The position numbers were made by a program, and so were the translations under genes. 64,000 nt of DNA from Sphingomonas sp. LHG3406-1. Lineage in GTDB: Bacteria > Pseudomonadota > Alphaproteobacteria > Sphingomonadales > Sphingomonadaceae. Location of the stretch: positions 1,426,001-1,490,000 of the forward strand of contig NZ_CP069128.1 in NCBI RefSeq assembly GCF_029637485.1, written 5' to 3'. Shown here piece by piece: positions 849 to 35,469 of this stretch; the stretch's first letter is position 1; the number at the start of each line of letters is the position of its first letter. Below the pieces are notes generated by a model, which was given only the letters and a program-made list of their open reading frames with translations, was not told where the DNA came from and ran no database searches.

Positions 849-899
849 GCAGGCCCTCCCCCGACTTCTCCCGCACGCGGGAGGGGAGAGGATTTCCCG
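803..899. repeat. palindromic repeat pair across the murC/murB junction
   Basis: Two GC-rich hairpins lie in this stretch: CTCCCG-TTTG-CGGGAG at 809-824, and CTCCCGC-AC-GCGGGAG at 868-883 within a longer run of C/G-rich purine-pyrimidine tracts. The second encodes the last ~18 residues of MurC ([13 protein letters not shown]...) and the first encodes residues 8-15 of MurB; the ATGA junction lies between them. Such [13 protein letters not shown] tails are typical of sphingomonad interspersed palindromes read through in frame. The assignment to one repeat family is inference from pattern. Confidence 0.6.
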
Positions 900-4670: not shown

Positions 4671-6154
4671 AGGTCCCCCACAATCCGCCGGAAGGCGTCC
4701 CCGCGTGCCTCGAAATCACGAAACTGGTCGAAGGAAGCGCAGGCCGGGGAGAGTAGAACCGTCTCGCCGGGAAGTGAATCCTCCGCCGCGCATTTCACCG
4801 CATTTTCCAGCGTTTCCGCGCGGGTGACCGCGACTCCGCGCGCTTCGAGCAGATCGGCGAACATCGGCCCCGCCTCGCCGATGGTGTAGGCGTGGGCGAC
4901 GTTGGCGAGGTGATCGGCGGTCTGCCCGAGTGATTTGGTCTTCGCCTGCCCACCGACGATCCAGCGGATGCGCGGATAAGCGGCGAGCGCAGGAGCGGCG
5001 GCTTCGGCGTTGGTGGCCTTGCTGTCGTTGACGAACAGCGTGCCATTCAGCTCCCGCACACGCTCCATGCGGTGGGGCAAGCCAGGGTAGCTCATCAGGC
5101 CTTCAACGATCGCGCCGAGGTCCGCGCCAGCCAGCTGGCTGGCGACAAAGGCGACGCACGCGTTCCAGGCGTTGTGCGGGCCTTGCAGCGCCGGCCAGTC
5201 GGCTTGCGGCGTGACTCGGCGGCCGTCGAGATAAAGCGCGCCCGCCGAAAAGCTCACGCCGCGATCCCAGACCGTATCGACCAGCACCTGATGTTCGGAA
5301 AGGCCCCGCCCCTCGGCGACGAGATCGTCGAGGAAGTTGCCGATCTGATCTTCCTCGGGTCCATTGGGGTCGCCGATCACCGCCGGTCGCCCCGGCGACT
5401 GCATCGCGAACAGCCGCAGCTTGGAGCGACCATAAGCCTCGAAGCTGTCGTAGCGGTCGAGGTGATCGGGCGTGATGTTGAGCAGCACCGCGACGTCGCA
5501 ATCGAGGCTCTGCGTCAGGTCGATCTGGTAGCTCGACAGCTCCAGCACATAGACCCCGCCTTTCTGCAGCGGGTCCTGCGCAAGGATCGGCAGCCCGATG
5601 TTGCCGCCCATTGCCGTAGGAATTTCAGCGGTGTCGAGGATGTGGTGGACCAACGCGGTCGTGGTGCTCTTGCCGTTGGTCCCGGTGATTCCGACCACCT
5701 TGTGCGGCGGAAGCTCGGCCCGGGCGCGGGCGAACAGCTCGATGTCGCCGATGATCTCCACCCCCGCCTCGCGGGCGCGGGCGGCGAGCGGATGTGTGTT
5801 GAGCGGCACGCCCGGCGAGACGACGAGGCTGTCGAACCGGGTGAGGTCGTCTAGGGGCGCGATCTCCAGAACCTCTCCGTCGCGAAGCGATGGGGAGGGG
5901 GATCGCTCAGCCGAAGGCTGAGTGGTGGAGGGGCCGTCCGCAGCGCCGCTGGCCCCTCCGTCCGCGCTTCGCGCTGCCACCTCCCCATTGCTTCGCGACA
6001 GGGAGGTTCGAAGTCCCTCCCGCGCCTCCTCCTTCTCGTCCCACGCCGTCACCCGCGCCCCGCTAGCCAGCAGCGCGCGCACGGCCGCTTGTCCCGACCG
6101 CGCGAGGCCGTAGACGGCGTAATGCTTGCCCGCCCAGGCCCTGGCCGTGATCAC
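4667..6154 (-). CDS. murD: UDP-N-acetylmuramoylalanine--D-glutamate ligase MurD with repeat-derived insertion
   Basis: ATP-dependent ligase that adds D-Glu to UDP-MurNAc-L-Ala. The GTG at 6154 overlaps the mraY stop as GTGA, giving 495 residues. Motifs: N-terminal YGLARSG (14-20), Mur P-loop [32 protein letters not shown] and a C-terminal [10 protein letters not shown]. Residues ~49-96 (from [12 protein letters not shown] to SLRDGEVLE) do not belong to the fold. They are encoded exactly by an inverted pair of palindromic repeats (5869-6009, 141 bp, frame kept) set in the uridine-nucleotide domain, between [11 protein letters not shown] and [12 protein letters not shown]. The gene must be functional because the pathway is essential and no other copy is seen here. 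Confidence 0.95.
5869..5934 (+). repeat. double-hairpin palindromic repeat, copy E1 (in murD)
   Basis: This 66-nt copy runs from GAACCTCTCC to GGAGGGGCC. Hairpin 1 pairs CCTCTCCGTCGC with GCGATGGGGAGG around a GAA loop. Hairpin 2 pairs ATCGCTCAGCC with GGCTGAGTGGT, also around GAA. It shares its layout with E3 and E4 near the DUF559 gene. Read on the minus strand in the murD frame it gives the peptide GPSTTQP, which is also found at the C-terminus of the DUF559 protein. Confidence 0.9.
5951..6009 (-). repeat. double-hairpin palindromic repeat, copy E2 (in murD)
   Basis: This 59-nt copy is in inverted orientation to E1, 16 bp away. On the minus strand it starts GAACCTCCCTGTCGC-GAA-GCAATGGGGAGG and ends GGAGGGGCC. 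The second hairpin is weaker (GCGC-GAA-GCGC with an adjacent A/G mismatch), so this arm has decayed relative to E1, E3 and E4. E1 plus E2 together span 141 bp (47 codons) and keep murD in frame. Confidence 0.85.
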
Positions 6155-15271: not shown

Positions 15272-15676
15272 ATGACGACTCGCCTTACCCTTGTCGCGCT
15301 CGGCGCGTTCCTCTCCCTGTCGGCTTGTAACAGCGCCGACAACACCATTGTCCAGCAGGGCCCGGCCGATCCGCTCGCCAACCAGCTGGCCGAGGCTCCG
15401 CCGGTCGAGCTGCCGCCCTCGATCGCCGCGAGCAAGACCTATCGTTGCGACGGCAACAAGGTGGTCGAGATCGACTGGACCGAGCGCAACGGCCAGCCGG
15501 CCGGCGCCAACTACCGGGTCGGCGCCGACACCGTCGCCTCCACCGTCACCACCGCTCCGGCCGAGGGCACCGGCCCCTACACCGGCGCCGACGGCAGCAG
15601 CATCACCGGCACCAAGGATGCGAGCAGCGTCCAGGTCACCCTCCCCGGCCAGAGCGCCATCACCTGCCGCGGCTGA
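15272..15676 (+). CDS. small lipoprotein, possibly MliC-like
   Basis: 134 residues with a lipobox (FLSLSACNS, Cys near 17). The mature part has a Pro-rich linker and a small domain that begins with SKTYRCDGNKVVEIDW and ends with a second Cys (AITCRG). The two cysteines and the YxCDG start resemble the MliC fold of lysozyme inhibitors, but similarity is limited, so this is tentative. The ATG at 15272 is chosen because the signal peptide starts there. The gene is divergent from the small membrane protein and is followed by a strong terminator at 15704. Confidence 0.7.
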   Translation: MTTRLTLVALGAFLSLSACNSADNTIVQQGPADPLANQLAEAPPVELPPSIAASKTYRCDGNKVVEIDWTERNGQPAGANYRVGADTVASTVTTAPAEGTGPYTGADGSSITGTKDASSVQVTLPGQSAITCRG

Positions 15677-15703
15677 GCGGCCAGCGCTGAATCCACCTCC
15701 CGA

Positions 15704-15730
15704 CCCCGGCCCTCACCGGCCGGGGTTTTT
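15704..15730 (+). terminator. rho-independent terminator
   Basis: An 8-bp perfect stem CCCCGGCC/GGCCGGGG with a 6-nt loop is followed by TTTTTG. It ends the lipoprotein transcript 28 bp after its stop. Confidence 0.9.
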
Positions 15731-15752
15731 GTTTGTGTGGCAGGTGGGGCTT

Positions 15753-15781
15753 ATGTCCGCTTTCGACCCGTTGCGGACGTT
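15753..15781 (+). repeat. 29-nt repeat R1 (ATGTCCGCTTTC family)
   Basis: This copy starts ATGTCCGCTTTCGACCC and ends GCGGACGTT, an imperfect palindrome. It matches R2 (16306-16334) at 23 of 29 positions in the same orientation. Peptides of the SAFDPLRTL / NVCFGWKAD type, common in over-annotated sphingomonad genomes, are read from this motif. R1 lies 35 bp outside repeat E3. Confidence 0.75.
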
Positions 15782-15816
15782 GGCTCCAGACGCCAGGGTG
15801 CGGCGGTGCCGATCCG

Positions 15817-15884
15817 GAACCTCCCCGTTGCGAAGCAATGGGGAGGGGGACCGCTCCGCGCAGCGGAGTGGTGGAGGGGCCAGC
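15817..15884 (+). repeat. double-hairpin palindromic repeat, copy E3 (left of DUF559)
   Basis: Hairpin 1 pairs CCTCCCCGTTGC with GCAATGGGGAGG around GAA (15820-15846). Hairpin 2 pairs ACCGCTCCGC with GCGGAGTGGT around GCA. The copy ends GGAGGGGCCAGC, only 3 bases before the ATG of the DUF559 gene. It is the mirror of E4. Confidence 0.92.
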
Positions 15885-15887
15885 ACC

Positions 15888-16262
15888 ATGCGCGCAACTG
15901 CCAACGCCATGTACGCCGCCCGGCGCTATCGCGGCCATCTAAGCCTGCCCGAACAACTTTTCTGGCGCCTGCTCCGCCAAGCCCGCCGCGACCTTCGCTT
16001 CCGCCGCCAGCATCCGATCGGTCCCTATGTCGCCGACTTCTACTGCGCGGCGGCCAAGATGGTGATCGAGATCGACGGCGCCTCTCACAATCACTCGCAA
16101 GCGGCAGACGAACGCCGAACCGCCTACCTCCACTCCGTCGGGCTGCAGGTCCTCCGCATCCCGGCCGCCGACGTCCTCGCCAACCCGGAAGCGGTCGCCG
16201 ACGCCCTGATGCGACGGTGCGAGCGCCGCGCTGGCCCCTCCACCACTCAGCCTGAAGGCTGA
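15888..16262 (+). CDS. DUF559 (Vsr-like, PD-(D/E)XK-type) endonuclease-fold protein
   Basis: 124 residues. The core LSLPEQLFWRLLR, FRRQHPIGPYVADFYC, VIEIDGASH and GLQVLRIP is the DUF559 family, related to very-short-patch-repair endonucleases. Candidate catalytic residues are E22, D50, E61 and D63. Family members occur alone or fused to helicases, and biochemical activity is mostly untested. The C-terminal GPSTTQPEG is encoded by repeat E4 and matches a peptide in the MurD insertion. An alternative ATG lies at 15909. Located between two convergent palindromes, it is the candidate mobilising enzyme for them. Confidence 0.9.
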   Translation: MRATANAMYAARRYRGHLSLPEQLFWRLLRQARRDLRFRRQHPIGPYVADFYCAAAKMVIEIDGASHNHSQAADERRTAYLHSVGLQVLRIPAADVLANPEAVADALMRRCERRAGPSTTQPEG

Positions 16263-16300
16263 GCGGTCCCCCTCCCCATTGCTGCGCAACGGAGAGGTTC
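16230..16300 (-). repeat. double-hairpin palindromic repeat, copy E4 (right of DUF559)
   Basis: On the minus strand it runs from GAACCTCTCC to GGGGCCAGC. Hairpin 1 pairs CCTCTCCGTTGC with GCAATGGGGAGG; hairpin 2 pairs ACCGCTCAGCC with GGCTGAGTGGT. It is the inverted partner of E3: the inner arm of hairpin 2 differs from E3 on both sides (AGCC/GGCT against CGC/GCG), so pairing is kept. It contains the DUF559 stop codon. Confidence 0.92.
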
Positions 16301-16305
16301 TGCGA

Positions 16306-16334
16306 ATGTCCGCTTTCCACCCAAAGCAGACATT
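16306..16334 (+). repeat. 29-nt repeat R2 (ATGTCCGCTTTC family)
   Basis: Starts ATGTCCGCTTTCCACCC and ends GCAGACATT. Same length and orientation as R1 and 5 bp outside E4, so R1 and R2 frame the E3-DUF559-E4 unit. The rest of the gap up to 16506 shows no further gene. Confidence 0.75.
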
Positions 16335-16506
16335 CAGGCCGCACGCTCGGGATTGCGGCGAGGCGGGCACAATCATTCCCTGCACTCTGCCTCGTCTCAA
16401 CGCCATATCAGGCCAGACGATCTGCCTGGGGGGAACCGATGCAGCCCGCGGCGCATAAGGTTGTGCGGAGCCCGATTGCGCCCGCTTGAAGCGAAGGAAG
16501 TCCGTC

Positions 16507-16854
16507 GTGAACGAGCAGAACAACTCCAGGCCGAACCCTGACCAGCAAAGCCCCTCCTCCAGGGACGATCGATCCGCCATCCCGCTCGGGCAAGGTCCCA
16601 CGGGCGAGGCTTCACCCGGCAAGTCCCCAGCTGGCGAACAACATCAAGACCAAGAGCTGCAGGGTCAACAGCCGCAAGGCCAGGCGCACGAGAACGCCGA
16701 AGGCGCGATCCCGAAGGCCGTGGAAGCCATCGAGAAGGCAGCCGACAAGGGGTTGGAGAAAACCTCGGGCGTCGTTGGAAGCACGATCGACAAGGTCGCT
16801 GATGCGGCGATCAGCGCGCTTGGCGGCAGGCCCGATCAGAACCACAATAGCTGA
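16507..16854 (+). CDS. small hydrophilic Gln/Asn-rich protein
   Basis: 115 residues from a GTG at 16507 preceded by AGGAAG with a 6-nt gap, which favours this start over an ATG 21 bp upstream. The first ~65 residues are Gln, Pro and Gly rich and probably disordered. The last ~50 ([20 protein letters not shown], then [11 protein letters not shown]) suggest an amphipathic helix. No signal peptide or known domain is seen. Codon use is less GC-biased than in neighbouring genes. An opposite-strand frame covers the same region but has no ribosome-binding site. Function unknown. Confidence 0.5.
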
Positions 16855-34332: not shown

Positions 34333-35469
34333 ATGAGCATTATTCCGGGGTGGGCGCGCGGTCGCGGCCTTTTTGCGGACAGCAAGGGACCTTGGGGTCC
34401 GAGCAGCGGCGGCACGCCGCCTGGAGGCGGCGGCAGCGATGGCGCGGACACGCCTCGACCGGGCCCGTCCAGCCCGTGGGGTTCCCCCGGCGTGAAGCGC
34501 CCGACCGGTGCCGCCAGTAACGTCACCAGCCTTGACGACTTCATCGCCCGCAGCCGCGCCCGCTTCGGTGGTGGCGGAAGCGGCGTCGGCCAGCGACCGC
34601 CGAGCAAGGCGCTGATCGTCTGGGGCCTGGTCGCGGCCATCGCCCTCTGGCTGCTCCTCACCAGCTTCCACCGCATCGCGCCGGAAGAGCGCGGCGTGGT
34701 CACCCAGTTCGGCCGCTACAGCCGGACCCTGGGCCCCGGCATCAGCTTCACCCTTCCGAGCCCGCTGGAGCGCGTCCAGAAGGTCGACGTCGAGAATATC
34801 CGCAACATCGACCTCGGTTCGGCCACCAGCGAGACGCTGATGCTGACGGGCGACCAGAACATCATCGATATCGCCTATTCCGTCCGCTGGAACGTGCGCG
34901 ACCCGGAGCTCTACCTGTTCGAACTCCAGAATCCGGAAGAAACGATCCAGCAGGTGGCCGAAAGCTCGATGCGCGCGGCGCTGTCGGGCGTCACTCTCGA
35001 CCAGGCGATCGGCGAAGGCCGCGGCGACATCGAGACCCGGGTGCAGGATTCAATGCAGCGCATCCTCGACTTCTACAAGGCCGGGGTCGTCATCCAGGGC
35101 GTCGCGATCAAGCAGGCCGACCCGCCCGCCGCCGTCAACGACGCCTTCAAGGCGGTCAGTGCCGCGCAGCAGGCAGCCCAGAGCGACATCAACCAGGCAC
35201 GCGCCTACGCCCTCCAGCTGCGCCAGCTCAGCCAGGGTGAAGCGACCGCCTTCGAGAAGGTCTACGAGCAGTATCGCCTCGCCCCCGAGGTGACCCGCCG
35301 CCGCATGTACTACGAGACGATGGAGCGTGTTCTGCAGAACGTCGACAAGACGATCGTCGAGGTCCCCGGCGTGACCCCCTACCTTCCGCTGCAGCAGACC
35401 CGTCCGCCCGCAGCGGCCTTGCAGGAGCCGGGCGCCGGCGCTGCCCAGCAGCAGGGAGCCGGCCGATGA
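34333..35469 (+). CDS. hflK: FtsH protease modulator HflK
   Basis: Inner-membrane SPFH protein that forms cages with HflC around FtsH. 378 residues: a Gly/Pro-rich cytosolic N-terminus (~1-90), one membrane helix (~93-112), the SPFH domain starting RIAPEERGVVTQFGRY, and a coiled-coil (AVSAAQQAAQSDINQARAYAL). The ATG at 34333 gives the full N-terminal domain. It overlaps hflC by ATGA. Confidence 0.95.
   Translation: MSIIPGWARGRGLFADSKGPWGPSSGGTPPGGGGSDGADTPRPGPSSPWGSPGVKRPTGAASNVTSLDDFIARSRARFGGGGSGVGQRPPSKALIVWGLVAAIALWLLLTSFHRIAPEERGVVTQFGRYSRTLGPGISFTLPSPLERVQKVDVENIRNIDLGSATSETLMLTGDQNIIDIAYSVRWNVRDPELYLFELQNPEETIQQVAESSMRAALSGVTLDQAIGEGRGDIETRVQDSMQRILDFYKAGVVIQGVAIKQADPPAAVNDAFKAVSAAQQAAQSDINQARAYALQLRQLSQGEATAFEKVYEQYRLAPEVTRRRMYYETMERVLQNVDKTIVEVPGVTPYLPLQQTRPPAAALQEPGAGAAQQQGAGR

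Follow-up and report, generated by a model that had tools for sequence, protein, structure and literature searches.

The closest described systems are the repetitive extragenic palindromic (REP) sequences and the enzymes that accompany them. According to the accessible parts of the survey by Di Nocera and colleagues (2013; PMC3733652), REPs include two families: GTAG, found with REP-associated tyrosine transposases (RAYT), and CGTC, for which no transposase had been found. As far as these parts state, an enzyme was known in 2013 for GTAG REPs and related inverted repeats only. In the accessible part of PMC8049555, REP doublets forming hairpins (REPINs) are counted among the most common bacterial repeat families. 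In the available portion of PMC12907096, Caulobacter VsrA is reported to trigger the SOS response in a methyltransferase mutant; the text of this paper gives 0 matches for 'palindrom' or 'inverted'. Among the matches listed in the open-access literature (mostly at title or abstract level, preprints being outside), none ties DUF559 or GIY-YIG to REPs.

This text deals with a DUF559 nuclease gene located between two inverted palindromic repeats (E3 and E4) in Sphingomonas sp. LHG3406-1. The window is the whole stretch of 64,000 nucleotides that was analysed (positions 1426001-1490000 of contig NZ_CP069128.1); the source genome is a single 2.85-Mb contig. The unit made of the gene and its repeats is read here, with a probability of about 0.7, as a compact selfish element: an autonomous REP with a PD-(D/E)XK nuclease in place of a RAYT. 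The features that define it are given below (positions of the window).

15817..15884, plus strand: upstream double-hairpin repeat arm (E3, type A), inverted copy of E4.
15888..16262, plus strand: DUF559 nuclease gene, 124 aa, intact, matching the PF04480 profile.
16230..16300, minus strand: downstream inverted double-hairpin repeat arm (E4, type A), overlapping the last 10 codons and the stop codon of the gene.

An earlier note on this DNA had described E3 and E4 as near-identical inverted copies, had placed the ATG 3 bp after E3 and the last ~10 codons and stop codon inside E4, and had proposed one compact unit of 484 bp. All of this is borne out, coordinates included. The two arms are 89% identical over 68 nt; their complementarity is 93% for the 43-nt arms and 82% for the 34-nt arms. 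The ATG is at 15888, 3 nt past E3, the stop codon is at 16260-16262, and gene and repeats span 15817-16300. E3 folds into two hairpins (DNA, -22.6 kcal/mol, z -4.7; equalled by 0/200 shuffles). The fold of E4 is weaker than that of E3 (z -1.6; equalled by 14/200 shuffles). No Rfam family was found within 15300-16800 up to E 0.1.

Judging from both its profile match and its acidic active-site pattern, the window protein is a PD-(D/E)XK nuclease of the DUF559 family. DUF559 (PF04480; 100.4 bits, cut-off 20.6) is the sole Pfam family over its cut-off, and D50, E61 and D63 are invariant in 47 proteins. Fold matches: NGO0050 (DUF559), the homing endonuclease I-Bth0305I, and Vsr. I-Bth0305I (PDB 3r3p) belongs to the EDxHD group; its catalytic fold is homologous. 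PADLOC matches are all weak and partial; one of them is a homing-endonuclease model (E 0.0016).

The source genome includes 27 (BLAST) or 28 (covariance model) copies of the repeat and four PF04480 genes, all four located between inverted repeat copies. The units and the other features of the window are as follows.

DUF559 units of the source genome (contig positions; PF04480 and BLAST): 1441817/1442300 (window), 916605/916123, 676206/675722, 2591438/2590954.
Window 5869..5938, plus strand: left half of a gene-less inverted pair (REPIN-like); 81.7 bits, same repeat as E3/E4.
Window 5948..6009, minus strand: right half of this pair; 57.2 bits, same repeat as E3/E4.
Window 15754..15816, plus strand: leader common to the element copies, with a TGTCCGC...GCGGAC hairpin at its start; this hairpin is also found solo elsewhere in the genome.
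Window 16307..16334, plus strand: second copy of the outer TGTCCGC-type hairpin, downstream of E4.

The three other units are 96%, 97% and 92% identical to the window unit and differ from it in their outer surroundings. Two of the four genes are intact (window and 2591; dN/dS 0.27) and two are frameshifted. An internally deleted unit, which keeps both arms and has lost most of the gene, lies at contig positions 2845425-2845504 and 1-113, i.e. across the contig ends; a circular chromosome opened inside a repeat is therefore suggested. Gene-less inverted pairs with short spacers are found at 1163452-1163591, 1431869-1432009 (window 5869-6009), 34486-34622 and 1790960-1791083. One genome thus combines complete units with a deleted one, REPIN-like pairs and solo repeats. 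A TGTCCGC...GCGGACA-type hairpin lies at both outer sides of the window unit in the same orientation (15754-15780, 16307-16334), and the left one has 6 further solo copies in the genome. This hairpin is either an independent repeat family or a part of the copied unit; the leader (15754-15816) is possibly a promoter or a part of the copied unit. One copy of another repeat type (type C, see below) is located at window 853-886, minus strand.

Inverted arms around DUF559 genes were detected by local alignment of the upstream DNA with the reversed downstream DNA at each gene (positive: score of at least 18). The null was given by same-shaped windows shifted by 850-1000 bp along the same loci. The family sample has one locus (the best) for each of 30 genomes, top-scoring among 129 positive genomes; the sample outside the family includes 28 top-scoring loci from 116 positive genomes. 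The genus sample includes 68 loci, 65 of them usable. It derives from 74 PF04480 matches, 4 of which were dropped (G150, G197 and one of G152, inside ~2000-aa frames; one weak G188 match) and 2 pairs of which, being broken pieces, were merged.

Inverted arms were found at 27/30 loci in the family and 56/65 in the genus, with 0/224 in shifted windows, and at 18 of a further 20 loci (two of these genes already belong to the family set). Beyond the family the association with inverted arms is looser: outside the class they were found at 8/15 loci; the null for both outside-family sets is 1/112. A pyrimidine-armed hairpin is present on at least one side at 29/30 family loci (null 2/116), at 13/13 loci from other families of the same class (null 3/52) and at 14/15 outside the class (null 8/60). 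A scan of a genome collection gave 80 named loci, mostly from Pseudomonadota. Among the 78 usable ones, 52 have inverted arms (null 3/294), 36 have direct repeats (null 5/294) and 63 have a pyrimidine hairpin on one or both sides (null 11/294). Record titles, of metagenome bins or similar, assign loci with inverted arms to Nitrospirae/Nitrospiria (L303, L311), Desulfobacterales (L283), Planctomycetota (L325), Rokuibacteriota (L321) and Gastranaerophilales (L310). In a plasmid collection, 11 of 32 matches were tested and 4 have inverted arms: Sphingomonas parapaucimobilis (unit between transhydrogenase genes), Novosphingobium, Azospirillum lipoferum and Deinococcus psychrotolerans (unit between paaD and paaZ). 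The elements are uniform in span, ~458 bp, and in most of them the right arm includes the stop codon. The association of DUF559 with palindromic repeats is near certain. The question raised by the earlier note, how often DUF559 lies between inverted copies, is thus answered by a strong association well beyond the window; the restriction to sphingomonads was too narrow, other proteobacterial classes and several other phyla having the same arrangement. At Legionella anisa (L318), the DUF559 gene is found inside long inverted repeats of unrelated sequence (score 125), unlike REP arms.

The arms are of several types.

Type A: CCTCCCC foot, two hairpins, GGTGGAGGGG tail.
Type A2: GACGGAGGGG tail.
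Type B: CCCTCTCCC, GGGTGAGGG tail.
Type C: CCCCTCCC, GGGGGTGGG tail.
Type D: CTTCTCCC, GGATGAGGGG tail.

The hairpin type follows the DUF559 clade, even within genomes. A tree was built from 87 DUF559 proteins, and an arm was typed for 70 of these; in 58/70 cases the arm type agrees with that of the closest typed protein in a different genome. Free shuffling of labels gives a mean of 20.4 (maximum 36, 500 shuffles); shuffling within genomes gives a mean of 39.1 (maximum 54), and 0/1000 shuffles reached 58. G203, G186 and G173 each have several DUF559 genes with differing arm types. Type-A inner stems are conserved by structure: the stem is at least 6 in 48/58 arms, with 25 distinct stem sequences, against 142/455 chimeric arms. 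The same inner hairpin was found in both arms of one unit in 0/27 cases.

Repeat number was compared with gene content in 61 genomes of one genus, 29 of which encode PF04480; these counts are not adjusted for relatedness. A and C gene labels were given by eye from arm types and tree order (A takes in A2 and loci with unclear arms), and the covariance model R1 rests on an RNAalifold structure that is only approximate. Type-A repeats average 9.9 in genomes that have any DUF559 and 0.94 in the others (p 1e-5). They average 13.4 in genomes with a type-A gene (n=19), 3.2 with other DUF559 only (n=10) and 0.94 with none (n=32). Type-C repeats average 6.2 with a type-C gene (n=14), 4.9 with other DUF559 only (n=15) and 1.9 with none (n=32). 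Within the 29 genomes that have DUF559, a gene's type is predictive of the matching repeat (p 0.010, 0.012) and not of the non-matching one (0.64, 0.60). The rise of repeat number with DUF559, which the earlier note had suggested checking, is seen. The converse case, repeats equally frequent without the gene, does not hold for type A, far rarer in its absence, although some DUF559-less genomes keep repeats; these may be relics of lost genes.

Empty sites, which the earlier note had suggested looking for, were found in related species. The window unit is absent from five syntenic congeners (G168, G159, G165, G205, G176); four of them lack any DUF559 and G168 has one elsewhere only. The closest congeners are ~77-89% identical at this site, too low to place the unit ends. 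Elements of G049 and G086 were therefore compared with relatives (serC, serA, yqeY and dnaG names were assigned by eye in the compared genomes); their empty sites are clear, the ends not being placed to the base. The G049 unit (423 bp) lies between serC and serA, in the interval from stop codon to ribosome-binding site. In 13 relatives with both flanks, no DUF559-sized insert is present at this site; 7-147 nt separate the aligned flanks. L201, L202 and L208 have short intergenic DNA without such a repeat; the sequence in G229 is GCTAAGGAACC; G123, the closest relative of G049, has another palindrome. The most parsimonious account of the serC-serA difference is a gain, at a site not necessarily holding such a REP before. 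A third G049 site has a gene-less type-A pair in G229 and a DUF559 unit in G123. At the yqeY-dnaG junction, units of several subtypes alternate across species with empty or differently filled sites. This junction (L191, L217, L219, L224, L228, L350-L386) looks like an insertion hotspot holding various DUF559 units, other palindromic inserts, or nothing; inserts of other species there are bounded by another REP family. DUF559 units are intergenic at all loci examined closely, and no intron or intein was seen there.

The following is thus established: the architecture and its recurrence, the match of REP type and gene clade, deleted and frameshifted copies, gene-less pairs, solo repeats, and presence or absence at one and the same intergenic site in related species. 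It is very likely that DUF559 units spread as units, and probable that the nuclease drives this spread; a break-and-repair step has about even odds. In such a mechanism, as suggested by the fold, the Vsr/EDxHD-type nuclease would recognise its own REP and nick or cut there. Recognition would probably involve the hairpin foot together with the G-rich tail, and the REP might be extruded as a cruciform. Repair of the break would then copy the element into intergenic DNA or capture it there. Gene-bearing units would spread themselves, gene-less REP pairs and solo repeats being by-products moved in trans. PD-(D/E)XK-type nucleases hydrolyse DNA and do not join covalently to it. Break and repair is favoured because the genomic signature is REP/RAYT-like but the enzyme is of the hydrolysing kind; homing-endonuclease-style chemistry would replace the HUH strand transfer of REP/RAYT.

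Several observations weigh against this reading, in addition to the missing adjustment for relatedness. Other families of the same class have inverted arms at 3/13 top loci only. The pyrimidine-hairpin test is positive at 27/62 genus loci only (null 4/169), probably because type-A stems are shorter. Seven of the 11 plasmid-collection loci tested have no inverted arms: E. coli (L230), Methylobacterium, Sinorhizobium, Azospirillum brasilense, Photobacterium (where two control windows scored 18 and 26), Synechocystis and Cupriavidus. Neither do L. shakespearei and L. waltersii among the named loci. In Neisseria gonorrhoeae (L269, L296), the gene lies between direct, not inverted, CCTCTCCC-type copies. 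These repeats have longer common flanks; the protein is, by eye, as in 3hrl, NGO0050. Copies in the source genome have common flanks beyond the arms, so that the copied unit may be larger. This genome also has 35 type-C repeats and no DUF559 gene of that type. At least 3 type-A copies are present in 4/32 DUF559-less genomes and at least 3 type-C copies in 9/32, i.e. 13/64 pairs of genome and repeat type; G205 has 17 type-C repeats without DUF559. Over all 61 genomes, cross-type predictions are weaker, yet below 0.05 (A gene/type-C repeat, p 0.036; C gene/type-A repeat, p 0.009), as expected if DUF559-less genomes are poor in both repeats. The dN/dS values of DUF559 pairs are few and fairly high (n=9, 0.27-0.61, median 0.52). 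No target-site duplication is readable at the serC-serA site, where inverted arms are present.

Some of these points would suit REPs spread by another enzyme, e.g. a RAYT/TIRYT Y1 transposase encoded elsewhere, with DUF559 as caught cargo. Repeats in DUF559-less genomes and the orphan type-C repeats of the source genome are in line with this, as are the RAYT-like genes between long inverted repeats that are on record in the accessible parts of PMC3733652. Independent capture would, however, yield neither the clade/repeat match within genomes nor units of one size (458 bp), most of them with the gene ending in the right arm, nor recurrence across phyla. DUF559 fills this unit and leaves no space for a second enzyme gene (Y1 transposases elsewhere in the genomes were not searched for). 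Capture as cargo is accordingly regarded as unlikely.

A house-keeping role is rated lower still: DUF559 would be a Vsr-like repair nuclease and the hairpins its co-transferred terminators or regulators. Caulobacter VsrA (CCNA_02930), a DUF559 protein, has indeed been proposed for very-short-patch repair, according to the available portion of PMC12907096. Such a role fits poorly with genes that are patchy (29/61 genomes), often several per genome (up to 10) and decayed in two of four cases in the source genome; nor does it account for gene-less inverted pairs and solo repeats distant from any DUF559, or for hairpin types that track the protein clade. Least probable, by a small step, is duplication of the source-genome copies by ordinary recombination through the TGTCCGC-type outer repeats, with no transposition. 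Three gene-bearing copies do have the outer hairpins and leader in common, and the left hairpin is solo at 6 other places; but copy 2591 has only part of the leader and nothing in common beyond E4. In other genera, the two sides cease to be similar close to the arms, and relatives have empty sites; clade-matched arms would stay unexplained.

The reading as a nuclease-bearing REP can be set beside another nuclease fold. Small GIY-YIG nuclease genes were sampled at 30 loci (L387-L416; one each from 30 genomes, 59 genomes searched): inverted REP arms are present at 21/30 (null 0/119). By eye, ~8 are CGTC-like (e.g. CGTCATCCCGG...CCGGGATCCAG in L405) and ~10 are of the CCGTTCG...GTCGAG type. Example loci between inverted REPs: L405, L395, L413, L414. 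In G218 (L219), the insert at yqeY-dnaG opens, by eye, like a GIY-YIG gene. Repeats of the described CGTC form surround GIY-YIG genes; if this holds, CGTC REPs have a candidate enzyme. The proposal that DUF559 plays the RAYT role stands in its genomic part (inverted REPs of its own type, clade match, REPIN-like pairs, solo copies, patchiness). This role may nevertheless be one case of a wider rule, because GIY-YIG, a third nuclease fold, has the same arrangement. It could equally well be true or false that, as a rule, bacterial REPs make up the non-autonomous half of 'nuclease-REP' elements, with small nucleases of three or more unrelated folds (HUH RAYT, PD-(D/E)XK DUF559 and GIY-YIG) each dedicated to their own hairpin families; GIY-YIG would partner CGTC REPs, and DUF559 would partner CCCTCTCCC/CCTCCCC-type REPs across many phyla. 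If so, many genes annotated as unknown or as Vsr-like repair would gain a role, the spread of REPs outside the GTAG group would be directly testable, and homing-type nucleases would gain a second lifestyle, spread of hairpin repeats in place of introns or inteins.

REP/REPIN systems with RAYT (TnpA-REP, 'REPtrons') and TIRYT/TIRtrons are alike in having a short enzyme gene between inverted palindromic repeats, here inverted REPs of the gene's own type. They also share gene-less inverted dimers, solo repeats, a pairing of each repeat type with an enzyme of its own, patchiness and intergenic location (PMC3733652, as far as accessible). They differ in the enzyme, an HUH/Y1 transposase of the IS200/IS605 group there and a DUF559 PD-(D/E)XK nuclease here, and in the foot: GTAG there, CCTCCCC/CCCTCTCCC-type with a G-rich tail here (GTAG is found on either strand in only 8/166 DUF559 arms, at scattered positions). 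CGTC-tagged REPs, mostly inverted dimers, are a REP superfamily of alphaproteobacteria, with a CGTC foot, an AT-led stem of 8-9 bp and a CCA tail in the accessible parts of PMC3733652; the DUF559 repeats differ from this form (for type-A arms, as judged by eye), although the letters CGTC occur on one strand in 23/166 DUF559 arms. Vsr and Caulobacter VsrA (PMC12907096, available portion) have a methyltransferase as partner; for the DUF559 genes described here, a palindromic repeat is suggested in its place. I-Bth0305I (PDB 3r3p) bears the PDB name of a mobile intron protein; the DUF559 gene lies between hairpin repeats instead. On present evidence, these units form a new class of REP elements, whose defining enzyme is a nuclease other than HUH. 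They do not qualify as RAYT systems and are not readily filed as homing endonucleases, yet their genomic behaviour resembles the first and their enzyme the second.
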